IMG/VR virus record: IMGVR_UViG_3300034022_000110
Coordinates: 1-30,341 of that record
Direction: 5' to 3' (one strand)
From: a virus
Length of the DNA: 30,341 nucleotides
The translations under genes and the position numbers were made by a program. Below the pieces are notes generated by a model that was not told the DNA's origin, did no database searches, and saw only the letters and a program-made list of their open reading frames with translations. Positions 1-30,341 of the stretch are shown in pieces (within the stretch, counting starts at the first letter, position 1; each line of letters opens with the position of its first letter).

Positions 1-163
1 GTTATTTAACTAAGGCATTAGCAAATGGACAAACAAATCAAATAGTTATTGGAGATAGTGCTATTGGTCTTGGTTCAAATAGTGTTGTATTGGGTAATGA
101 TTCAATAACAAAAACTATTTTAAAGGGCAACGTAGGAATAGGAACAACTGCTCCTGTAGCAAG
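1..163. repeat. Left copy of the terminal overlap
   Basis: These 163 bases match 30179-30341 at 162 positions. The single difference is C at 128 against T at 30306, the third base of a glycine codon (GGC/GGT). The repeat lies inside the tail-fibre gene and the frame is kept across it. This is what a circular or circularly permuted genome looks like when an assembly is closed on itself. True short terminal repeats usually do not split a gene. Confidence 0.92.
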
Positions 164-3097: not shown

Positions 3098-3667
3098 ATG
3101 GAACAAACATTAAACCAAAAACTGTCTTTAATTCAAAAAGAATTTAAAGCAAACAAATCAAAATTTAACTCGTTCGGAAAATATAACTTTAGAAGTGCTG
3201 AAGATATATTAGAAGCATTAAAACCTTATAACGAAAAATACCAAGTAAGTTTTATTATTACAGAAAGGATAGTTTCAAGTTTTGATAGTAATAGTAATTT
3301 TCCACCAATGTTAAAATCAATAGCAACTATTTTAGATAACAATGGAGTTAATAAAATATCAGCTACAGCTATTGTTGGAATTGACTTAAATCAAAAAGGT
3401 ATGCAAGTACCACAACAATTTGGTTCTGCATCTTCTTATGGAAAAAAATACGCATTAGGTAACTTATTACTTATTGATGATACACAAGATTCAGACGCAT
3501 CTAATAAACACGATAAAGTAGTTAAAGAAGATGATTTAAAATGGTTAAATAAAAATACACCAGAATTTAAAAAAGCTATTGAATATTTAAAAAATGGTGG
3601 TAATATTGCAACTATTGAAAGTAAGTATAAAATGACTAAAGAAACAAAAGAAGAATTAACTAAATAA
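3098..3667 (+). CDS. erf: ERF-family single-strand annealing protein
   Basis: A 189-residue recombinase of the ERF superfamily. It has the family's N-terminal helix and GKYNFRSAEDILEALKP block (about 27-43) and the strongly conserved FGSASSYGKKYALGNLLLI (about 108-126) followed by DDTQDSDA (127-134). ERF proteins form rings on single-stranded DNA and anneal complementary strands during phage recombination and genome circularisation. The last 50 residues are variable and lysine-rich, as is common. Its partners are the SSB-like protein immediately downstream and the NinG-like protein upstream. I see no missing motif. Confidence 0.9.
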   Translation: MEQTLNQKLSLIQKEFKANKSKFNSFGKYNFRSAEDILEALKPYNEKYQVSFIITERIVSSFDSNSNFPPMLKSIATILDNNGVNKISATAIVGIDLNQKGMQVPQQFGSASSYGKKYALGNLLLIDDTQDSDASNKHDKVVKEDDLKWLNKNTPEFKKAIEYLKNGGNIATIESKYKMTKETKEELTK

Positions 3668-3722
3668 AGCTGAATAGCCGACAACAGTAAAATAAGGTAG
3701 GCAATAAATAAAAACAAATAAT

Positions 3723-4019
3723 ATGAGTGCATTAATTAATTTTAGTTTAAGAATTGACAAATTACCAAAAGAAAAATTTGTTATCGGAAAAGATGGAGCA
3801 GTTTACTACAATGGAACTATTTCTATTAACGATGAAACAAATCAGTTTGGACAAAATGTTTCAATTACAGATTCTCAAACACAAGAAGAAAGAGAAGCAA
3901 AGAAACCTAAAACTTATTTAGGAAATGGAAAAGTAGTATGGAGTGATGGTAAAATTACAAACGCTACAAAACAAGAATCAAAAGCAGTTGAATTAGAAAC
4001 TGCAGATTTACCATTTTAA
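3723..4019 (+). CDS. SSB-like protein with a DLPF tail
   Basis: A 98-residue protein downstream of ERF. The first part is compatible with a small beta domain: KFVIGKDGAVYYNGTISIND (about 19-38), then QNVSITDSQTQEER and YLGNGKVVWSDG. The last residues are acidic and end in TADLPF, like the D-D-[IL]-P-F tip by which bacterial SSB recruits RecO, RecQ, PriA and other proteins. With ERF upstream and a helicase-like ATPase downstream, a single-strand-binding role is likely. The domain is shorter than a usual OB fold (about 110 residues), so it is either a minimal phage SSB or a protein that mimics only the SSB tail. Confidence 0.65.
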   Translation: MSALINFSLRIDKLPKEKFVIGKDGAVYYNGTISINDETNQFGQNVSITDSQTQEEREAKKPKTYLGNGKVVWSDGKITNATKQESKAVELETADLPF

Positions 4020-4027
4020 ATTAATCA

Positions 4028-4051
4028 GGGAGTGTAACAGCTCCCTTTTTT
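4028..4051 (+). terminator. Terminator or attenuator between SSB-like gene and helicase
   Basis: GGGAG and CTCCC enclose an eight-base loop and are followed by six T. The next gene starts only 11 bases later, and no promoter fits in that gap. It probably lets part of the transcription through. Confidence 0.8.
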
Positions 4052-4062
4052 AAACAAAACAA

Positions 4063-4911
4063 ATGACAATAGACAAAGACGAACATAGACTTATAATGCA
4101 AGTTTTGATAGAAGAAGCTACTATCAATCCTTTAGAAAAAATAGATTATCCAACACCAGCTATTTCATTTGGAACAAAAGCATACGAAACAAAAGATGGT
4201 TTATTAGAATATCCTATTCCAATAGGAACATACGGAAATTTTAGTTTTGTACAAGCACCACCGAAATCAAAGAAAACATTTTTTATTAGTTTACTTTCAG
4301 CAGTTTATTTAAACGGACAATTAAACGGAATAAGCGGCGATTTAAAAGGTAATAGAGATAACAAACATTTAGTACATTTTGATACAGAACAGGGTAACTT
4401 TCACGCACAAATGGTTTTTAAACGACCGATTGAAATGACTGGAACTATAACTGATAGATATCATACATTAGCATTAAGGCAATATTCTGCAAAAGATAGA
4501 GTTGATTTAATAGAATTCTATTTATACGATACGTTAGATAAAAAAGATATTGGATTGGTAATTATTGATGGTATTGCAGATTTATGTAGTGATGTAAATA
4601 ATATAGAAGAATCTAATTTAGTTGTTCAAAAGTTAATGAAATGGACAAAAGAATTAAATTGCCATATAATAACTGTTATACACTCTAATTTTGGAACTGA
4701 TAAACCTACAGGACATTTAGGTTCAGCATTAGAAAAGAAAGCAGAAACACAAATTCAATTAGAATTAAATACAGTAAACAAAGATTTAGTAACCGTAAGT
4801 TGTAAACGTTCCAGAAACGCAGGATTTGAAAATTTTAGTTTTAAAGTAAATAAATCAGGATTGCCACAAGTTGAAGGAGATTTTTACGATGTAATGAAAG
4901 GAGTATTTTAA
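4063..4911 (+). CDS. RecA-like ATPase, probable replicative helicase (RepA-like)
   Basis: A 282-residue P-loop ATPase. The Walker A region is VQAPPKSKKTFF (64-74; lysine K71), the Walker B is LVIIDG (165-170; D169), and HFDTEQG (105-111) and VIHSN (205-209) fit the strand-2 acidic and H4-type motifs of RecA/RepA hexameric ATPases. The Walker A is odd: the two usual glycines of GxxxxGK are A65 and K70. This single-domain layout is typical of RepA-like helicases and the AAA_25 family. It lies just after the SSB-like gene and is the only helicase seen, so it probably unwinds the phage origin or fork. A recombination ATPase is an alternative. Confidence 0.75.
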   Translation: MTIDKDEHRLIMQVLIEEATINPLEKIDYPTPAISFGTKAYETKDGLLEYPIPIGTYGNFSFVQAPPKSKKTFFISLLSAVYLNGQLNGISGDLKGNRDNKHLVHFDTEQGNFHAQMVFKRPIEMTGTITDRYHTLALRQYSAKDRVDLIEFYLYDTLDKKDIGLVIIDGIADLCSDVNNIEESNLVVQKLMKWTKELNCHIITVIHSNFGTDKPTGHLGSALEKKAETQIQLELNTVNKDLVTVSCKRSRNAGFENFSFKVNKSGLPQVEGDFYDVMKGVF

Positions 4912-5201
4912 TGGAAACAACAATAAAAAACCACGTAGAAGAATTACAGCTATCAGCTGAAAGAATGTTACTATTGCATTCAGACAATAAAGTGTTAATA
5001 AGTTATTTTAAAGACTTGAAAGAAAAGTTGTTATATTTGAAACAATTAAGTATGATAGAAACAAAGTTCCAATGGAATGAATTAGAAAACATAATTAATT
5101 TATTGCAAAAACAAGATTCTCAGATAACTAATATACATATTGATTTAGAAGTTAAAGAAAGTAAATATAAAAATAACGCTTATTTAAAAATAAAACTATG
5201 A
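4911..5201 (+). CDS. Hypothetical helical protein, 96 residues
   Basis: The start overlaps the helicase stop by one base (TAATG). Residues about 5-70 are leucine-rich helices (LQLSAERMLLLHSDNK, LKEKLLYLKQL, LENIINLLQKQ) that could form a short coiled coil; the end (IDLEVKESKYKNNAYLKIKL) looks like two beta strands. It is coupled to the helicase upstream and to a membrane protein downstream (ATGA overlap). It may be a helper of the ATPase, but no family is recognised. Confidence 0.6.
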   Translation: METTIKNHVEELQLSAERMLLLHSDNKVLISYFKDLKEKLLYLKQLSMIETKFQWNELENIINLLQKQDSQITNIHIDLEVKESKYKNNAYLKIKL

Positions 5202-5419
5202 TACTAATTTCATTTGTACTATTTACTATTTATTTTTTAATGCAATTAATGGTAAAATACGATGGCGATGTAATAATAGCACCAATAAAAGGTTTAATGT
5301 TTGGTGCATTATACAATGACGATATTGATAATAGAGAAACAGAACACACTATTCAAATAGTGCTTTTCGTAATATCAATAACATTTATATGGATAACAAC
5401 AAATGGCTCGAAAAAGTAG
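5198..5419 (+). CDS. Small membrane protein, 73 residues
   Basis: Two hydrophobic spans at about 2-18 (ILISFVLFTIYFLMQLM) and 52-66 (IQIVLFVISITFIWI) separated by a polar loop with acidic residues (YNDDIDNRETEHT). The ends are short, so both termini lie on the same side of the membrane. It overlaps the sigma-like gene by 31 bases. A membrane protein in the early region could act in superinfection exclusion or host takeover; nothing in the sequence decides. Confidence 0.6.
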   Translation: MILISFVLFTIYFLMQLMVKYDGDVIIAPIKGLMFGALYNDDIDNRETEHTIQIVLFVISITFIWITTNGSKK

Positions 5420-5931
5420 CCTTACATCACAAAGAATGGGTTAAGATTATAAATGGATTTGGAGAATTTGATTATGCTGAAGATATAGTCCAGGAAAGTT
5501 ATATAGCTTTATGGAAATATGCAGATGCTGATAAAATTTTAGATTCAGAAGGCAATGTCAGAAAAGGATATGTTTATTTTACTTTACGAAGTTTATATTT
5601 TCAATATTACAATAAGAAAATGAAAATAACTAAAGTACCTTTTGATGGATGTTGGGAATTATTTGATGATTCAAACATTGAAGAACACAAAGCGTATAAT
5701 AATATATGCTTAATGATAGACAAAGAAATAGATAATTGGCACTGGTATGATAAAAAGCTGTTTAAACTTTATAGAGATTCAGATATGTCAATGCGAGATA
5801 TAGCAAAAGAAACAAACATTAGTTTGATATCTATATTTCATTCAATTAAAAACTATAAAGAAATACTTAAAAACAAATTTCAAAAAGATTACAACGATTA
5901 TAATATTAACGATTACAATAACACTTATTAA
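5389..5931 (+). CDS. ECF-like RNA polymerase sigma factor
   Basis: A 180-residue protein with the two helical domains of a minimal sigma-70 factor. The region 2 core is DYAEDIVQESYIALWKYAD (28-46), close to the AEDIVQExFxxLW pattern that binds the polymerase clamp. After a linker, SMRDIAKETNISLISIFHSI (134-153) reads as the region 4 helix-turn-helix that contacts a -35-type element. The C-terminal tail is rich in N, Y and D. A phage sigma factor would redirect host polymerase to late genes. A candidate target sequence, lacking TAnnTTTG, occurs after terminators at 15152-15173 and 25192-25214. Region 4 is recognisable but diverged. Confidence 0.75.
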   Translation: MDNNKWLEKVALHHKEWVKIINGFGEFDYAEDIVQESYIALWKYADADKILDSEGNVRKGYVYFTLRSLYFQYYNKKMKITKVPFDGCWELFDDSNIEEHKAYNNICLMIDKEIDNWHWYDKKLFKLYRDSDMSMRDIAKETNISLISIFHSIKNYKEILKNKFQKDYNDYNINDYNNTY

Positions 5932-5939
5932 TTAAAATT

Positions 5940-6317
5940 ATGGCTAAAAAGAATGCACAAGGTTTGGGAGACACTATTGAACAAATCACAGAAGTAACTG
6001 GAATCAAAAAAGTAGTAGAATTATTTTCATCCGTAACAGGTTTAGATTGCGGTTGCGATGAACGAAAAGCAAAGTTAAATAAATTATTTCCTTATAACGG
6101 AAACATTAATTGTTTAACTGAAAAAGATTATAACGCTTTAACAGAATTAATTGAACCAAGCAAAACCGAATTAACACCTGAAGAGCAAAATTTAATTTCT
6201 GAAATTTATCTTAATGTATTCAATTATCGTTTACAATTATCTTCTTGCGGTTCTTGTTGGGCAGGTAAAATACAAGAATTAAGAAAAGTATACAACGAAT
6301 ACAAAATTAATGATTAA
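5940..6317 (+). CDS. Conserved cysteine-containing phage protein
   Basis: A 125-residue protein beginning MAKKNAQGLGDTIEQITEVTG. Conserved-looking blocks are GLDCGCDERKAKLNKLFPY (34-52) and a C-terminal CGSC (about 102-105). The CxC and CxxC pairs could bind a metal ion. I recall proteins with GDTIExxTxxTGIK followed by CGCDERxxxLNKLFPY in many Bacteroidetes phages, crAss-like ones included, but know no function. It lies eight bases after the sigma-like gene and overlaps the next gene by eight bases, so it belongs to the same early operon. Confidence 0.7.
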   Translation: MAKKNAQGLGDTIEQITEVTGIKKVVELFSSVTGLDCGCDERKAKLNKLFPYNGNINCLTEKDYNALTELIEPSKTELTPEEQNLISEIYLNVFNYRLQLSSCGSCWAGKIQELRKVYNEYKIND

Positions 6318-6711
6318 TTGGAAAGAAGTTGATTTATTTAATTGGCTAAAAGAAAATATCTATCCTGATTTAGTCAAAGCAAAGAATCAAATGTCAAGGT
6401 GGGATTGTTATAGTTCCACCACTGGACATAGATTAGAACTAAAATGTAGAAAAGCACATTACCCTACATTACTATTAGAAAAGAAGAAATACGATGCAAT
6501 GAAACAAGAATGCGAAAAGCATTTAGATACACCAATGTATTTTAATTCAACTCCAAAAGGAATTTATAGTTTTAATCTAAATTTAATTATCCCAGAATGG
6601 GAAACAAATAATAAAAACCCAGCAACAACACAATTTTATAATACACAAAGAATAGAAAAAGAAGTAGCATATTTAGAAATAACAAAAGCAAAACAATGGA
6701 AAACAATATAA
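6310..6711 (+). CDS. PD-(D/E)XK-like nuclease
   Basis: A 133-residue protein with a possible PD-(D/E)XK active site: D32 in SRWDCYSS, followed by E43-L-K45 in RLELKCRKAHY, as in the D-x(n)-ExK signature. The next residues (LLLEKKKYDAMKQEC) form the helix that usually follows, and MYFNSTPKGIYSFNLN supplies further strands. Single-domain enzymes of this size in phages include resolvases and repair or packaging nucleases. It lies in the early operon, overlapping both neighbours (8 and 16 bases). The fold call rests on the motif and predicted order only, and the specificity is unknown. Confidence 0.62.
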   Translation: MINWKEVDLFNWLKENIYPDLVKAKNQMSRWDCYSSTTGHRLELKCRKAHYPTLLLEKKKYDAMKQECEKHLDTPMYFNSTPKGIYSFNLNLIIPEWETNNKNPATTQFYNTQRIEKEVAYLEITKAKQWKTI

Positions 6712-7052
6712 TACAATTAGAATACCTAAAATCAGTTCTATTAAGTCAATTACTTTTAGAATCAAATGAAAGTTTATTTTTTACAAAACAATACAAGCAA
6801 CAAATTAAACATAAAATAAATAGTTTAAATAAAGACTTGGAAGAAATTGTACGGGATGAATATAGAATTATTTACGATACAGATGCAGAAACAACTACTA
6901 ATATATTAAGAAGCATAGAAGAAATAATATCAAAGCTTCAAACCTCATCTATTGACGAATTAGTAATGATAAATGCTGTAATAGATAAATACAAAGAAAA
7001 TAAAGAATGGTTCGTTAAACACGCTGAAACAGAATTCTTAAGACTTGAGTAA
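6696..7052 (+). CDS. Hypothetical helical protein, 118 residues
   Basis: Mostly helical, with segments YLKSVLLSQLLLESNESL (about 9-26), QYKQQIKHKINSLNKDLEEI (about 32-51) and NILRSIEEIISKLQ (about 69-82). The basic first half and the long charged helices suggest a coiled coil or a DNA-associated adaptor. It overlaps the nuclease-like gene by 16 bases and the next start by one base (TAATG). No family recognised. Confidence 0.58.
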   Translation: MENNIIQLEYLKSVLLSQLLLESNESLFFTKQYKQQIKHKINSLNKDLEEIVRDEYRIIYDTDAETTTNILRSIEEIISKLQTSSIDELVMINAVIDKYKENKEWFVKHAETEFLRLE

Positions 7053-7327
7053 TGGCTAAAAAACAAATCATTCAATATAAACCTACGGATGAAGAATTTA
7101 AAGCAATGAAAATTTGTTTGGATAATGATTTAGCATATTATATAGAAAGAACTAAAGATTCAAGTTATTATGTAATTAAGTACAGACCATCAAATTACAA
7201 ACTAATAAATTATTTAGCTATTGATACAAAGTTAGAAGCAACACCAAGTAATAGACAAACGTTTAACGAATATGAAGGAATGAAGAAAGTAATGGATTTA
7301 TATAAACAACACTCAAAAAGATTTTAA
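7052..7327 (+). CDS. Hypothetical 91-residue phage protein
   Basis: It begins MAKKQIIQYKPTDEEFKAMK, then DLAYYIERTKDSSYYVIKYR (about 30-49) and a C-terminal helix EYEGMKKVMDLYKQHSKRF. The pattern of a short helix, a two-stranded sheet with paired tyrosines and a final helix resembles a small family I recall in Flavobacterium-type phages. Function is unknown. It is coupled on both sides by one-base TAATG overlaps. Confidence 0.58.
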   Translation: MAKKQIIQYKPTDEEFKAMKICLDNDLAYYIERTKDSSYYVIKYRPSNYKLINYLAIDTKLEATPSNRQTFNEYEGMKKVMDLYKQHSKRF

Positions 7328-8083: not shown

Positions 8084-8279
8084 TGAAATAAAAGAACAAG
8101 CATACATCAAAGTAAGATGTAAAATAAATGCTTTAAACAGAGAAGAACAAGATTATGTTTATCAAATAACAACTGGTAAAACTGATTTAGAAGAAGACAT
8201 TTTATATAGAATGTTAGATTCAACCACGAGAGAATTAAAAGTTTGGGAGTATATGTTAACTTTAATCAATAACGGATGA
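8076..8279 (+). CDS. Hypothetical 67-residue protein
   Basis: A charged helical protein: MDNEIKEQAYIKVRCKINAL, then DYVYQITTGKTDLEEDILYR and a final ELKVWEYMLTLINNG. It overlaps the gene before by eight bases and the exonuclease start by four (ATGA), so it is part of a tightly coupled three-gene operon. No motif that tells its role. Confidence 0.6.
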   Translation: MDNEIKEQAYIKVRCKINALNREEQDYVYQITTGKTDLEEDILYRMLDSTTRELKVWEYMLTLINNG

Positions 8280-8989
8280 TTTTATTATTTGATGCAGACA
8301 GCTTAATATTTGCTAGTTGCCTTAAAAGAAAAGAGGACAACTCTGATGAAAAATTTTATACAGATATAGATTTATCAATACATAAATTTGAAGAAGGGTT
8401 TATGAAAATTATTAACGATTTAGAAGAAACTTACGAAATAAATAAAGTATTGGTTTTTTCTGGTTCAATAGGTAATTTTAGAAAATATATTTCACCGAAA
8501 TACAAAGCTAATAGATTAGTTTCTGATTTACCGCCGTTATTGAATGAAATGCACAAATTCGTTAAAGAAAATTATGGTTCAATAGTTGGTCACGGAATAG
8601 AAACTGATGATATGGTTGCGAGGTATTGGTATAATTTAGCAAAAGAACACGGTAGAGAAAGCGTTATGATAGTTTCAATAGATAAAGATTATAGGCAATT
8701 TCCGGCATTGATTTATAATTACCATTTTAAACACAAATGTGTTTATGATATATCCGAATCTGAAGCAATGTACAACTTTTATGAACAAATGATAATAGGA
8801 GATGGGGCTGATAATGTTCAATACTGTAAAGGTTATGGAAAGAAATATGCAGAGAAATTATTTGCAGGGTGTGATTCACATTATAAATATACTAAAAGAG
8901 TTTATGAATTATTTAAAAAAATACACAAAGGAAAAGCAAAGCAGCGTTATATTGAATGTTATAATTTGTTAAAATTAAGAACAAATTAA
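8276..8989 (+). CDS. 5'-3' exonuclease of the flap endonuclease family
   Basis: A 237-residue protein with the PIN/FEN metal ligands in order: FDAD (D6, D8), GIETDDMVARY (E109, D111, D112), SIDKDYRQF (D136, D138) and the start of the helix-three-turn region MIIGDGADNV (D176, D179) followed by GYGKKYAEKLF (187-197). These match the nuclease domain of DNA polymerase I and phage 5'-3' exonucleases such as T7 gp6 and T5 D15. It would remove RNA primers and 5' flaps, or resect ends for ERF annealing. It is the last gene of a three-gene operon. No polymerase is fused or seen elsewhere in the window. Confidence 0.88.
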   Translation: MILLFDADSLIFASCLKRKEDNSDEKFYTDIDLSIHKFEEGFMKIINDLEETYEINKVLVFSGSIGNFRKYISPKYKANRLVSDLPPLLNEMHKFVKENYGSIVGHGIETDDMVARYWYNLAKEHGRESVMIVSIDKDYRQFPALIYNYHFKHKCVYDISESEAMYNFYEQMIIGDGADNVQYCKGYGKKYAEKLFAGCDSHYKYTKRVYELFKKIHKGKAKQRYIECYNLLKLRTN

Positions 8990-9067: not shown

Positions 9068-9256
9068 ATGGAATTAAAAAAGTACAAACAGAATTTAGTT
9101 ATTGAAGGCAACTATGTTAAAAGTTACGGAACTATTGTGGCTATTATAAATTATGAGTTTAAAGAATTAGAACAGTTAGGGTATTGGTCTAAAACAACGC
9201 AAAAGCATATTAATTATGTAGCAGATGAATTAAATTTAATACTTATAAAAAAATGA
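9068..9256 (+). CDS. Conserved small phage protein, DUF8033-like
   Basis: A 62-residue protein: MELKKYKQNLVIEGNYVKSY, GTIVAIINYE, then GYWSKTTQKHINYVADELNL. The block WSxTTxKHINYVAxEL is strongly conserved in small proteins from many phages, which I recall as DUF8033; the function is unknown. It is the first gene of the operon that carries the DNA-modification genes and ends in an ATGA overlap with the next. Confidence 0.7.
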   Translation: MELKKYKQNLVIEGNYVKSYGTIVAIINYEFKELEQLGYWSKTTQKHINYVADELNLILIKK

Positions 9257-9471
9257 AATTATTTGAAGATGATTGGGGAATAGATAATTCACCAATAGAT
9301 AACACTGAAATTACTACAACAATGCTTTATTTTAGTGTAGAAGAATTAAAACAATTTAAAGCGTTATGTAAAAAAGGTATTAAAAAAGAATTTGGTAGAG
9401 AATACCAACAAAAAGGAAATTTAAGCGATTTACTATTAATTATTTTAAAAGAAAAATATGAAAACATATAA
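9253..9471 (+). CDS. Hypothetical 72-residue protein
   Basis: An acidic N-terminus (MKLFEDDWGIDNSPIDNTEI) is followed by one strand and two helices: MLYFSVEELKQFKALCKKGI and LSDLLLIILKEKYENI. Strand-helix-helix is the order of ribbon-helix-helix DNA-binding proteins, so a small regulator is possible. It overlaps the dioxygenase gene by 14 bases. No firm family call. Confidence 0.58.
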   Translation: MKLFEDDWGIDNSPIDNTEITTTMLYFSVEELKQFKALCKKGIKKEFGREYQQKGNLSDLLLIILKEKYENI

Positions 9472-10324
9472 ATTAAAAAAGCAATTAACTGACGAACAAT
9501 CAGAAAAGTTAAAAGGCAAATACCTTACTGATAAAAATTATGACCTGTTAATTACAGAAGATGCTGACGGCTATGATTTAAATGGAAATTTATTATTTAG
9601 CTTTAGGAAAAATGCAATACCAATGGAAACATTAATGTTAGGAGTTAATTCATTTAAAGATAGTATTGAAGTAACTGAAAGCAGGGGTTACGCTTCAGGT
9701 AGTAGCCACAAACGTATCCGTAAAGATGGTTCAGTTAGTAATATAACTGTAGGTAATAAAGTTGAATCAGGTAGCGTAGGTTTTATGGATTCAGGTGCTA
9801 TGGTTAAATATTGTCGTAAGACTGCTTTTGCTAAAAATTATTTTGATAAATATAAAAGCGGAATACCATTTGTAAAATTTATTGATGACAAATATAAAGA
9901 ACTTTGCCCAGTACATTACGCAAAACAAAAAGCAATAGCGCAAGGAACAAATCAAAATTATGTTATAGCTAGTACAGCTTTTACTACAGTAACAGTTAAT
10001 AAAAATTTTAGAACAGCAGTACATCAAGATGCTGGTGATTATCCTGATGGTTTTGGTAATTTAATTGCATACCGAGAAGGTAATTGGACAGGTGGTTACT
10101 TTTGTTTGCCTCAATACAAAGTAGCAATAGATTTACAAAACACTGATATACTTTTTGTTGATGTACATAAATGGCACGGAAATACAGATTTTATTAATAC
10201 TGAAGAAAATTGGTTAAGAATTAGTTTTGTAATTTACTACAGGGAGTATATGTATAAATGTAAACAACCTGCAGAAGAATTATTAAAAATGAAAATGGAT
10301 AAAACAGGGTACTTAAATTTATAA
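9458..10324 (+). CDS. TET/JBP-like 2-oxoglutarate and Fe(II)-dependent DNA base dioxygenase
   Basis: A 288-residue enzyme with the double-stranded beta-helix signature of the TET/JBP family: NKNFRTAVHQDAGD (181-194; iron ligands H189 and D191), GFGNLIAYREGNWTGGYFCLP (198-218), FVDVHKWHGN (233-242; third ligand H240) and LRISFVIYYREYM (253-265; R254 and S256 for 2-oxoglutarate). The N-terminal half carries RGYASG and CRKTAFAKN blocks typical of the phage branch. These enzymes hydroxylate the methyl group of thymine (JBP) or 5-methylcytosine (TET) in DNA. A glycosyltransferase follows two genes later. No DNA methyltransferase was found in the window, which favours thymine or a host-made 5mC as substrate. 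Confidence 0.83.
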   Translation: MKTYKLKKQLTDEQSEKLKGKYLTDKNYDLLITEDADGYDLNGNLLFSFRKNAIPMETLMLGVNSFKDSIEVTESRGYASGSSHKRIRKDGSVSNITVGNKVESGSVGFMDSGAMVKYCRKTAFAKNYFDKYKSGIPFVKFIDDKYKELCPVHYAKQKAIAQGTNQNYVIASTAFTTVTVNKNFRTAVHQDAGDYPDGFGNLIAYREGNWTGGYFCLPQYKVAIDLQNTDILFVDVHKWHGNTDFINTEENWLRISFVIYYREYMYKCKQPAEELLKMKMDKTGYLNL

Positions 10325-10326
10325 AA

Positions 10327-10782
10327 ATGACAACAACAAGGAAACAAGAAAAAGGATACGAATTTGAATCATACATAATGGATTGGTTCTGTAAGCAAAA
10401 AAACATTAATTTAAGTCATTACACTTTATTAAAAGAACAATTTGAAAAAGGGGAAAATAGACAAGGTATTGAAATTAAAAATGACCAAAGGTTTATTGAA
10501 ACTGGAAATTTATTTATAAGTATTGAACGTGATTATGGTTACAAAAAATATGAAGGCGGTATTTATAAGAATCAAAGTTGGTTATATGTGATTGGTTATG
10601 AACAAGAATTTTATATATTTGCTACCAAACATTTAAAACAATATTATGAATTTAACAAACCCGCATTGTTTGATGGCTTTAAAAGTGATAAAGGCGGAAC
10701 TGATAAAGGTTTTTTATTAAGCAAGAAACAAGCAGAAAGAATCTGCATAGAAAAAGTAACTAATCAAACTAAATTATTTTAA
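10327..10782 (+). CDS. PD-(D/E)XK-like nuclease between the two modification genes
   Basis: A 151-residue protein with an N-terminal helix (EKGYEFESYIMDWFCKQ, about 8-24) and the motif GENRQGIEIKND (42-53), where E43 and E49-x-K51 fit the core of restriction-type nucleases. A strand with ISIERDYGYKK (64-74) follows, then WLYVIGYEQEFYIF (86-99). It begins two bases after the dioxygenase stop and ends two bases before the glycosyltransferase start. Its place suggests a role tied to DNA modification, for instance cutting unmodified DNA. The catalytic residues are read from the pattern and are not proven. Confidence 0.62.
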   Translation: MTTTRKQEKGYEFESYIMDWFCKQKNINLSHYTLLKEQFEKGENRQGIEIKNDQRFIETGNLFISIERDYGYKKYEGGIYKNQSWLYVIGYEQEFYIFATKHLKQYYEFNKPALFDGFKSDKGGTDKGFLLSKKQAERICIEKVTNQTKLF

Positions 10783-10783
10783 T

Positions 10784-11551
10784 ATGGAAGAATTATATAT
10801 TTATATAACAACAAAGTCAAGGTTTAATAAATGTAAAACAGCTGATTTAATCGGAAACTTTAAAAATTTATATTTAATAGTTGAACCCCAAGAATACGAA
10901 GATTATAAAAAAAATTACCCAGATTTTAATATTGTTAAATTACCTTATAATAATAAGGGTTTATCTTATGCAAGAAATTTTATTAAAATAAATACAGAAT
11001 TAAAAAACATAAGTGATTATTGGTTGTTAGATGATGATATTAGTTATTTTTATAAAAGGGAAGGAACTAAATTAATTAGGGAAGATTTTAAAGTATGTTT
11101 AAATAATTCAAAAGAATTTTTCAAAAAAAATTCAATTGCTGTTGGGGCGTTAGAATATCGTCAATATGCGTGGGCGGCTAATAAAAGGTTAATATTAAAT
11201 TCTTTTTGTGATTCAGCGGTATTTATAGATAACCAATCAACAAAAGGTTTAAGGTATAATGAAGATTTAAAATTAAAAATAGATAGGGATTTTTGTATAA
11301 AAACAATAAAATCCGGCAACAAAACAGGTAGGGATACATTTTACGCCTTTAGTGTACCTCCAAACGGAAGTAATTCAGGTGGGTTAAAAGAAATTGCTTA
11401 TGATATTATTGACCTGGAAAAAAATATGTGTTTAAAAATGGTTGAAATTTGGGGTTCAAATATTTGCGAATATATAATAAAACCAGATGGCAGAAATGAT
11501 TTAAAAATACATTGGGATAAAATAAATACAAATCAAATAGAATTATTCTAA
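10784..11551 (+). CDS. TET-associated glycosyltransferase (TAGT-like)
   Basis: A 255-residue protein with a GT-A-type pattern: YIYITTKSRF (5-14), YLIVEPQEYEDY (30-41), YNNKGLSYARN (55-65) and a hydrophobic strand ending in an acidic triad, YWLLDDDIS (79-87; D83-D85, the likely metal and sugar-nucleotide site). These blocks fit the TET/JBP-associated glycosyltransferases predicted by comparative genomics (Iyer and co-workers) to add sugars to hydroxylated bases. Its operon neighbour two genes before is the matching dioxygenase. The likely product is a glycosylated 5-hydroxymethyl pyrimidine. The donor sugar cannot be read from the sequence. Confidence 0.8.
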   Translation: MEELYIYITTKSRFNKCKTADLIGNFKNLYLIVEPQEYEDYKKNYPDFNIVKLPYNNKGLSYARNFIKINTELKNISDYWLLDDDISYFYKREGTKLIREDFKVCLNNSKEFFKKNSIAVGALEYRQYAWAANKRLILNSFCDSAVFIDNQSTKGLRYNEDLKLKIDRDFCIKTIKSGNKTGRDTFYAFSVPPNGSNSGGLKEIAYDIIDLEKNMCLKMVEIWGSNICEYIIKPDGRNDLKIHWDKINTNQIELF

Positions 11552-11766
11552 TGAACGATAAAGCAATAGACCATTATAATCTAACTTTATATGAAATAGA
11601 ACAAGGAACAACTTTAAAACAAGTAAGAGATATACTAAAACACTATGAACAATTAGAATTATATGAAGAATGCCAAGGAATACATTTAGCATTAGAAATA
11701 ATAAGTTTCAATGTACTAACAGATTTAATTAAAAACAAACAAAAAATAAAAATAAAATGGAAATAA
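11551..11766 (+). CDS. Hypothetical 71-residue protein
   Basis: Helical, with YEIEQGTTLKQVRDILKHYE and YEECQGIHLALEIISFNVL, then a basic end (KNKQKIKIKWK). It overlaps the glycosyltransferase stop by one base (TAATG) and the DnaA-like gene by ten. The basic tail may help bind nucleic acid. No family recognised. Confidence 0.58.
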   Translation: MNDKAIDHYNLTLYEIEQGTTLKQVRDILKHYEQLELYEECQGIHLALEIISFNVLTDLIKNKQKIKIKWK

Positions 11767-12263
11767 CAGAAAGATTAAAAGAAATAATACAATCAGAAAC
11801 AGATACAAACATAAACATAAGAACACGTAAAAGAGAAACAGTAGAAGCAAGAAGTTTATATTGTTCAATATTAAAACAATTATACCCAAATAAAACCTTT
11901 CAAGGAATAGGAGATACATTAGAACTTAATCACGCAACTATTATACACGCATTAAGAATGTATAACATATACGAGAAATCAAATCCAGAGTTAAAGCATT
12001 TAAGAAACAAAATATTAAGCAACTTTATAGAAGTAGAACAATCACAAAATACAAAAGAAGAAAACGAAATATACAACTTAAGATTTAATAACGTATCTTT
12101 GACAAAACAAATAAAAGAATTAGAACAAAAACCAAGATATGAAAACAAAACAATAAACAAACTAAATAGCTTAATGGAACAATACGAAGGAATGAAACAA
12201 CAACAAATAATAATAGATAGATTAGAAGCATTTTATAAAATGAATACTAACATAAAACTATGA
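11757..12263 (+). CDS. DnaA domain IV-like DNA-binding protein
   Basis: A 168-residue protein. Residues 18-70 resemble the C-terminal DNA-binding domain of DnaA: RTRKRETVEARSLYCSILKQ (22-41), then FQGIGDTLELNHATIIHALR (48-67), where N-H-A-T-I-I-H stands for the D-H-[SA]-T-V-x-H signature that reads DnaA boxes. There is no AAA+ domain. The rest (about 95-165) is a long charged helix, LTKQIKELEQKPRYENK onward, likely a coiled coil. It may bind the phage origin and recruit a helicase, or compete with host DnaA. No cluster of DnaA boxes was noticed in the window. Confidence 0.72.
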   Translation: MEITERLKEIIQSETDTNINIRTRKRETVEARSLYCSILKQLYPNKTFQGIGDTLELNHATIIHALRMYNIYEKSNPELKHLRNKILSNFIEVEQSQNTKEENEIYNLRFNNVSLTKQIKELEQKPRYENKTINKLNSLMEQYEGMKQQQIIIDRLEAFYKMNTNIKL

Positions 12264-28269: not shown

Positions 28270-30341
28270 ATGGCAAACGATATAATTGATATAAATGTTT
28301 ATGAAACTACTGAAACAGTTTCAATAACAGTACAACCTAATTTAACTACTATTAATGTAAATTCTGTTACGAGTGTTTCTCCTGTAACTTCTGTTAATGG
28401 ACAAATTGGGGATGTAGTTATTCCGACTTCTGATAATAATTTTACTACAGTTTTAAAAAATAAACTTGATGGAATTCAAGCTGGAGCAGAAGTTAATGTA
28501 AACGCTGATTGGAACGCTACTTCAGGAGATGCTCAAATTTTAAACAAGCCAACTATTCCAGCAGCAGTTACAAAAACATCGGATTTAACAAACGATGGAG
28601 CTAATGGAGTGAATCCATTTATAACTTTGGAGGATATTCCTGCGGGTGGTTTAACTTCCGTAGGTTTAACAATGCCAACTGCTTTTAGTGTTGCAAATAG
28701 TCCTTTGACTTCTGATGGCACAATAGCCGTAACCGCTTCTGGAACTTCGGCACAATATATTCGAGGCGATGGTCAACTCGCAACTTTGCCAAGCGGAGGC
28801 GGAGGTGGTGCATCTGTATTTTATTATTTAAATGGTTCGATTGCTGCATCGGTAGCTACTTATAAACAATTAAGTAATACGGCGGTAATTGGAGCTGGAA
28901 CAGATTTTGCAATTACAGGCAATGGTTTAATTACGCAATTTTTAACGGATGTTGGAAATCCAAATAGATTACAAATACCTTCAGGAGCTTGGAATTTTGA
29001 AATGTTTTTTTCAATGTCCTCAAGTGGTGGAACGCCAAAGTTCTATGTTGAATTATTAAAATATAACGGAGCAACTTTTACAACTATTGCAAACAATTCA
29101 GCAGCTCCTGAAACAATAAGCGGAGGTACAAATATTGATTTGTATTTAAGCTCTTTAGCAGTTCCTGAAACAACATTGTTATTAACTGATAGATTAGCGA
29201 TTAGGGTTTATATTGTAAATAGTACAGGAGGTAGAACAGCTACATTACATACTGAAGATAATCATCTTTGTCAAATAACCACAACCTTTGCAAGTGGTAT
29301 TTCAGCAATAAATGGATTAAATTCTAACAATCAATATTTATCGGTAGGAACAAGCGGAACAGATTTCAATATTAATAGCGCAAGCGAAACGCATACATTT
29401 AATTTACCAACGGCATCAGCTACAAATCGAGGAGCTTTAAGCACAACAGATTGGAGCGCATTCAATGCTAAACAAAACGCATTAACAAATCCAATCACAG
29501 GAACAGGAACAATTGGAACAATACCAAAATTCAATGGAAGTACTACATCATTAGCAGATAGTACTATTATTCAATTAGCGAATGGCGATATAACAATTAA
29601 TGGTTTAAGATTAGGATTAGGATTAGCATCGGTTGCACAAAATACTGTCTTTGGTTATCAATCAGGTAACGCAATAACTACAGGAAATTTTAATACTTTG
29701 ATGGGTTATCAGGCAGGAACGTTATTAACTGAAGGACAAGAAAATACTTTTTTAGGAAGATATGCAGGAACTGCTGCAACAACCGCTGCTCAAAATGTTG
29801 CAATAGGTCAAGGAGCAGGGATTGCTTTATCAACAGGAGCAGGAAATAATGTTTTGGTGGGCAATGGAAGTGGAAATAAAATAAAAACAGGGCAATATAA
29901 TTCTGCAATAGGAAATTCTGCATTACAAGGAGTAATAACAGGAAGTCAAAATACAGCAATTGGTTTTGGTGCTTTGCAATCAACAACTTCAAATTACAAT
30001 ACTGCTTTAGGTTATAATAGTGGGTCTAAAATTACAGGAGGTCAACAGCAAGTTACTATTGGTTATGAATCTTTAGGATATAATACAACAGGAGATTATA
30101 ATATTTCAATAGGTTCACAAGCAGGAAGGTCAACATCAGTTGGTAATTTAATAAGTTCAAGTTCTTCGATTTTTATAGGTTATTTAACTAAGGCATTAGC
30201 AAATGGACAAACAAATCAAATAGTTATTGGAGATAGTGCTATTGGTCTTGGTTCAAATAGTGTTGTATTGGGTAATGATTCAATAACAAAAACTATTTTA
30301 AAGGGTAACGTAGGAATAGGAACAACTGCTCCTGTAGCAAG
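28270..30341 (+). CDS. Tail fibre protein, N-terminal 690 residues (continues at the left end)
   Basis: The frame opens at 28270 and runs to the window end without a stop; through the 163-base overlap it continues to 332, giving 746 residues. The N-terminus (DIIDINVYETTETVSITVQP) is the likely attachment part. NADWNATSGDAQILNKPTIP (about 78-97) is a motif found in many phage fibres. TSVGLTMPTAFSVANSPLTS (about 129-148) and a glycine run (about 177-181) follow, then many repeats of the type GYQSGNAITTGNFNTLMGYQ and IGNSALQGVITGSQNTAIGF, which resemble trimeric adhesin head repeats. It should bind the host surface. A lone C/T difference in the overlap leaves the protein unchanged. Confidence 0.9.
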   Translation, partial: MANDIIDINVYETTETVSITVQPNLTTINVNSVTSVSPVTSVNGQIGDVVIPTSDNNFTTVLKNKLDGIQAGAEVNVNADWNATSGDAQILNKPTIPAAVTKTSDLTNDGANGVNPFITLEDIPAGGLTSVGLTMPTAFSVANSPLTSDGTIAVTASGTSAQYIRGDGQLATLPSGGGGGASVFYYLNGSIAASVATYKQLSNTAVIGAGTDFAITGNGLITQFLTDVGNPNRLQIPSGAWNFEMFFSMSSSGGTPKFYVELLKYNGATFTTIANNSAAPETISGGTNIDLYLSSLAVPETTLLLTDRLAIRVYIVNSTGGRTATLHTEDNHLCQITTTFASGISAINGLNSNNQYLSVGTSGTDFNINSASETHTFNLPTASATNRGALSTTDWSAFNAKQNALTNPITGTGTIGTIPKFNGSTTSLADSTIIQLANGDITINGLRLGLGLASVAQNTVFGYQSGNAITTGNFNTLMGYQAGTLLTEGQENTFLGRYAGTAATTAAQNVAIGQGAGIALSTGAGNNVLVGNGSGNKIKTGQYNSAIGNSALQGVITGSQNTAIGFGALQSTTSNYNTALGYNSGSKITGGQQQVTIGYESLGYNTTGDYNISIGSQAGRSTSVGNLISSSSSIFIGYLTKALANGQTNQIVIGDSAIGLGSNSVVLGNDSITKTILKGNVGIGTTAPVA
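30179..30341. repeat. Right copy of the terminal overlap
   Basis: Matches 1-163 at 162 of 163 bases; see the left copy. Removing one copy leaves a circle of 30,178 bases in which the fibre gene is whole. Confidence 0.92.

Follow-up and report, generated by a model that had tools for sequence, protein, structure and literature searches.

The question raised by this locus is how a small virus might decorate its own DNA with a TET-like dioxygenase and the genes around it, which base would be decorated, and how this could be coupled to replication in a genome among whose scanned proteins no DNA polymerase or clamp was matched. The window, meaning the whole stretch of 30,341 nucleotides analysed here (an IMG/VR virus record), had been given a preliminary description in which three consecutive genes were a possible hypermodification cassette, with thymine or host-made 5mC as the likely substrate. 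The cassette itself is borne out by profiles, predicted folds, gene order in more than 80 relatives and the replacement of its glycosyltransferase (GT) by a kinase or an amino acid:DNA transferase (ADDT); a preference for thymine is not established, since residues D194 and R262 of the dioxygenase match those of CMD1. We consider it probable that four genes constitute a post-replicative DNA hypermodification cassette that is tethered to a sliding clamp.

Structure of the genome and the cassette

The first 163 nucleotides of the record (1..163) and the last 163 (30179..30341) are identical at 162 of 163 positions, and when the ends are joined a stop-to-stop frame of 749 amino acids spans the junction. 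Given this overlap, the window amounts to an essentially complete genome, about 30,178 bp (~30.2 kb) in length and circularly permuted or redundant in form; the label 'linear' that IMG/VR attaches to the record is contradicted by an end overlap with a single mismatch. Genes for ERF, an AAA protein, a 5'-3' exonuclease, terminase, portal and endolysin were identified, and the nearest relatives of the terminase belong to Flavobacterium phages (55%); the host of this small virus is probably a flavobacterium. An Rfam scan of the window gave no match, and scans for promoters and terminators gave nothing exceeding shuffled sequence. A small protein at 6310-6711 contains an LELKCRK stretch and might be a further PD-(D/E)XK-type nuclease, with no match in a profile search.

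All four cassette genes lie on the plus strand. The three genes first described have the coordinates and close spacing attributed to them, with 2 bp separating the dioxygenase from the nuclease-like gene and 1 bp separating the latter from the GT; the gene after the GT begins at 11551. Two features had been overlooked: the nuclease and the GT each end in a QxxLF tail, and a gene for a 72-amino acid protein (9253..9471) overlaps the dioxygenase gene by 14 nt, which is also the usual overlap across loci. This protein has no match among Pfam families or PDB sequences and looks like a ribbon-helix-helix protein by eye only, with no profile match. Of 87 loci collected by way of TET, 83 have this gene before TET, and when a scan was anchored on the 72-aa gene itself, TET came directly next in 70 of 71 loci, the remaining one lying at a contig edge; it is an obligate upstream partner of TET. 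All four genes are under purifying selection (dN/dS 0.07-0.18 against relatives). Judged by profile scores, the linkage of nuclease to TET and these dN/dS values, the cassette is well beyond chance.

The dioxygenase gene (9458..10324, 288 aa) encodes a genuine member of the TET/JBP family of 2-oxoglutarate/Fe(II) enzymes. It matches PF12851 at 5.3e-25 (88 bits, cut-off 34.9), and the iron ligands H189, D191 and H240 and the 2-oxoglutarate-binding R254 noted from the start are present and invariant in an alignment of 39 sequences. Its AlphaFold model (pLDDT 82.7) superposes on human TET2 (Z 20.4), CMD1 (18.6), NgTET1 (17.6) and CcTet (17.1), ahead of the best non-TET chain (14.3) and of AlkB-type enzymes (about 14), so the dioxygenase withstands the refutation that a failure to superpose on TET folds would have been; oxidation of a DNA base is the activity predicted from sequence and model. 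When family profiles were run against PDB sequences, TET (profile A1), GT and ADDT had no relatives and the nuclease matched at chance level only; a more diverse set of TET sequences was needed to reach TET2 by sequence. TET-anchored searches recovered 125 viral relatives, from which 80 loci were fetched. A search of GTDB genomes returned one match only, a contig from a Winogradskyella MAG (L122) in which a TET of 37% identity is accompanied by two GT-like genes.

The last gene of the cassette (10784..11551, 255 aa) encodes a TET-associated glycosyltransferase (TAGT), as identified by PF20691 (4e-17; 63.3 bits, cut-off 27.5), phrog_842 (4.9e-26) and its aspartate motif. The DDD motif at 83-85 is where it had been placed; D84 and D167 are invariant among GT sequences and D85 nearly so, and sugar transfer is the predicted function. 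The position that it occupies, after TET or TET-nuclease, holds a DNA-tailoring family in all 83 complete loci: GT subfamily a in 26, subfamily b in 36, both in two, a P-loop kinase alone in eight, and ADDT (PF18724, 4.7e-19) with a kinase in 11. At least 26 changes of occupant are required on the TET tree, compared with seven for the nuclease. In four relatives (L005, L006, L007 and L013) a P-loop kinase stands in place of the GT; their DNA is 86-90% identical to the window up to about 10800, where homology breaks, to resume at about 11520-11750. The simplest reading of this exchange would be that one common TET product is supplied to different finishing enzymes.

Several observations were made beside this slot. 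Three loci (L016 7006-7662 and two others) have a different sugar transferase (PF04488) before the TAGT, which suggests a second sugar in some relatives. In Pelagibacter phage HTVC112P (L002 6973-9195) a ParB-like protein and TET are followed by an FkbM-family methyltransferase, which may be another way to finish a TET-made hydroxyl. Relatives of the kinase carry the annotation terminase small subunit (L110 2875-3465, L112 10998-11543) or, in other mycobacteriophage records, adenylate kinase, and the TET at L110 785-1759 is listed as a queuine tRNA-ribosyltransferase; these look like misannotated hypermodification genes. The 5'-3' exonuclease just upstream of the cassette (window 8276-8989) is found in 19 loci and its position is taken in 47 by an unrelated PD-(D/E)XK exonuclease of the DUF3799 family, making a second site of exchange. 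The protein at window 11757-12263, which has a sub-threshold match to PF08299 (the DnaA C-terminal helix-turn-helix), occurs near the cassette in 63 loci.

Thymine or 5-methylcytosine as the substrate

With regard to the base on which the dioxygenase would act, the evidence is even: the missing methyltransferases point to thymine and the pocket residues D194 and R262 to 5mC. As first described, the window lacks a methyltransferase or hydroxymethylase, in that PF00145 (C5-methyltransferases), PF01555 and PF00303 (thymidylate-synthase type) have no match, and this absence carries more weight because the genome is essentially complete. PF00303 is also absent from 17 of 18 other records. A phage C5-methyltransferase is present in eight of 48 records; among six contigs with end overlaps (the window, G005, G007, G017, G026 and G030) it is found in G005 only, and the complete genome of phage P12024L has none. 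Collinearity with L008 places the insertion site of this gene, which is uninterrupted in the window, at 4908..4914: window 3657-4912 and 4910-7137 correspond to L008 956-2223 and 3090-5327, and between these the relative carries a C5-methyltransferase of 287 aa (L008 2224-3087). L011 shares the insertion, and the TETs of L008 and L011 are 95% and 90% identical to that of the window; since such near-identical TETs accompany a methyltransferase whose insertion site is unoccupied in the window, the methyltransferase appears to be optional.

The predicted base pocket comprises D194, Y260 and R262. D194 aligns with N1387 of TET2 and is the counterpart of the residue that contacts N4 of 5mC in TET2 (N1387), NgTET1 (D234) and CMD1 (D350); together D194 and R262 match Asp350 and Arg418 of CMD1, R262 by its position two residues past the stacking aromatic. 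Both are invariant in the window's TET family, as taken from the 39-sequence alignment and not from a regular expression. The corresponding positions in ADDT/kinase phages outside this family hold Asn with Leu or Ile in 25 of 33 sequences, a count made by regular expression, which misread some sequences. CMD1 uses 5mC, and neither the wild type nor its D350N mutant forms a product on T (PMC7854593).

There is, then, close to an even chance that the substrate is thymine, the dioxygenase acting like kinetoplastid JBP to place 5hmU in DNA, which the TAGT would convert to a base-J-like product. The lack of a C5-methyltransferase in the window, in four of the five other contigs with end overlaps and in P12024L argues for this, as does its optional nature in L008 and L011, and the slot also accepts ADDT and kinase, two families with known parts in the hypermodification of thymidine by way of 5hmdU. 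Against it stand the correspondence to CMD1, an enzyme inactive on T, and the pocket composition of the ADDT/kinase phages. Nor can the kinase and ADDT relatives be taken as proof of a 5hmU route, an argument weakened by the gene order in phage Melnitz, where a C5-methyltransferase, TET and an unknown gene precede the kinase.

It is just as credible that the substrate is 5mC made by methyltransferases of the present or a previous host, which TET and GT would turn into glycosyl-5hmC and so hide from type IV (modification-dependent) restriction. The pocket residues are of the 5mC type, some of the C5-methyltransferases in the eight records carry a QxxLF tail, and a passage in PMC12730594 states that published phage systems combine a C5-methyltransferase, TET and GTs. 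However, a cassette strongly conserved across many phages would then rely on variable host methylation, and a C5-methyltransferase is lacking in most records, five of those with end overlaps among them.

The nuclease-like protein and the C-terminal tails

The middle gene (10327..10782, 151 aa) has no Pfam match, and its assignment follows from a motif and a predicted fold. The PD-(D/E)XK-like motif reported for it corresponds to E43, E49 and K51 (GENxQGxEIK), invariant in 35 sequences, and the model (pLDDT 84.9) matches I-Ssp6803I (Z 7.4), Eco15I-N (6.5), D212 (6.1), Hjc (5.5), RecU (5.3) and PvuII (5.1). The best 18 fold matches in the PDB are all PD-(D/E)XK nucleases at Z 4.6-7.4, moderate scores that, being below 8, may mean no more than a common arrangement. 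We regard the protein as an optional accessory that most likely cleaves DNA lacking the modification, whether of the host or of a competitor. A minority possibility that we take seriously is that it has nothing to do with modification state and is a recombination resolvase, or a free-standing homing-type endonuclease inserted beside TET; its top structural match is indeed a homing endonuclease, with the Hjc and RecU resolvases next, and the close relatives L010 and L012 lack it while retaining TET and GT. Yet it adjoins TET in 63 of 64 loci, with no other setting seen, and half of the nucleases share the clamp-like tail of the modification enzymes.

This tail is QTKLF in the nuclease (codons 10765-10779) and QIELF in the GT (codons 11534-11548), and these are the only ORFs of the window with a QxxLF ending. 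Counting distinct sequences across loci, it terminates 64 of 77 GTs, 34 of 66 nucleases and 22 of 24 kinases whose loci also contain the 72-aa gene or the nuclease, compared with none of 125 TETs, none of 78 proteins of the 72-aa family and six of 2425 background ORFs; the motif counted is short, and within a family most of the sequences are related. Three of the six background cases look like N-methyltransferases, and C5-methyltransferases with the tail also occur, including in other positions. It is absent from distant GTs and from the kinases of the T4-like phages Melnitz and Cr30, the latter of which encodes its own clamp loader.

The pattern suggests that the tails dock the tailoring enzymes and the nuclease on the host clamp DnaN and so couple them to the host replisome. 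Such docking is likely because the tails match the C-terminal QL(S/D)LF of bacterial sliding-clamp binders (PMC9690074), and because the alpha-glucosyltransferase of T4 binds the T4 clamp gp45, although in T4 this interaction is not the main determinant of glucosylation levels (PMC13216743). What counts against this part of the model is that the tail is missing from all TETs and from half of the nucleases. Among open-licence papers we found none linking a clamp motif to a phage DNA methyltransferase. That the tail is a contact among cassette proteins or a stability tag instead of a clamp hook, as its occurrence mainly on enzymes of one cassette and the predicted status of clamp binding would allow, is quite unlikely given its fit to the published motif, its presence on DNA methyltransferases (P12024L gp28 and C5-methyltransferases in other positions) and its absence from the kinase homologues of T4-like Cr30, with its own loader, and Melnitz.

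A proposed mechanism and its relation to known systems

The model of a clamp-tethered, post-replicative cassette is built on computed families, folds, gene order, slot exchange, a tail motif and the absence of phage methyltransferases, and from these we infer catalysis, the base used, clamp binding, the role of the nuclease and a benefit to the phage in escape from restriction. First, the TET-like dioxygenase, for which the co-produced 72-aa protein is probably a guide, would hydroxylate a pyrimidine of phage DNA at its C5-methyl group. Second, the TAGT would link a sugar to the hydroxymethyl group so formed. The QxxLF tails, on the GT and about half of the nuclease family, probably dock on host DnaN, so that new phage DNA would be modified at the fork of a borrowed replisome, and the PD-(D/E)XK protein would cut unmodified DNA. 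Two further points tell against this account: there is no phage-encoded source of 5mC that would account for the substrate, and the TAGT of T2 and T6 adds its sugar to an already glucosylated base and not to the hydroxymethyl group itself.

A bolder version, which we regard as somewhat unlikely, is that small phages lacking a replisome operate a modular base-decorating line. Its enzymes, though unrelated (glycosyltransferases, kinases, methyltransferases and a nuclease), would have gained DnaN hooks independently, and its TET would act on thymine with no phage methyltransferase, giving a bacterial counterpart of base J. The cassette model itself, if right, would show in what way DNA is modified during replication by phages that depend on the replisome of the host, would make a C-terminal QxxLF a simple sequence flag for unknown phage DNA-modification enzymes, and would offer natural sets of near-identical TETs paired with different finishing enzymes. 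The old question of what a methyltransferase-less phage TET/JBP uses, thymine or host 5mC, would also become directly testable, P12024L being a cultured phage.

TET-TAGT cassettes are already known, and TET with ADDT and kinase also occurs in cluster-B mycobacteriophages such as Zemanar (gp2-gp4). In the base J pathway of kinetoplastids, hydroxylation by JBP1 and JBP2 is followed by a J-glucosyltransferase; the proposed scheme is similar in that a TET/JBP-family hydroxylation precedes glycosylation and needs no methyltransferase, but the host belongs to a different domain and the pocket residues of the window's TET resemble those of 5mC enzymes. Thymidine hypermodification in phages M6, ViI and W-14 is said, in the account of Lee et al. 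from 2018, to proceed through a 5hmdU kinase and an amino acid:DNA transferase, and cassette relatives likewise carry ADDT and a P-loop kinase in the GT slot. Here, however, the hydroxymethyl group is probably made in DNA by TET and not by a dUMP hydroxymethylase. The same distinction applies to pre-replicative systems of the T4/SPO1 type, whose thymidylate-synthase-like dCMP/dUMP hydroxymethylase is absent from the window (PF00303). The alpha-glucosyltransferase of T4 and the TAGT of T6 also place sugar on hydroxymethylated phage DNA, and the former binds a sliding clamp; but in T4 5hmC is produced at the nucleotide stage and the clamp is the phage's own, whereas the putative clamp here is that of the host and the tail is found on several unrelated enzyme families.

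The phage system of TET, C5-methyltransferase and GT attributed to Burke et al. 2021 in a passage of PMC12730594 similarly applies TET and GT to DNA after replication; from what that passage conveys, the window differs in having no C5-methyltransferase and in adding the 72-aa partner, the nuclease, the exchangeable slot and the clamp-like tails. The same gene order is seen in Nonlabens phage P12024L (gp25-gp28), with a 72-aa-type gene of 71 aa, a TET 73% identical and a TAGT 53% identical to those of the window, although P12024L lacks the nuclease and its TAGT is followed by an N4/N6-methyltransferase with the same type of tail. Relative to the literature searched, what is new is the obligate 72-aa partner, the linked nuclease, a measured rate of slot exchange, a tail motif shared by unrelated modification enzymes, and the existence of two pocket types.
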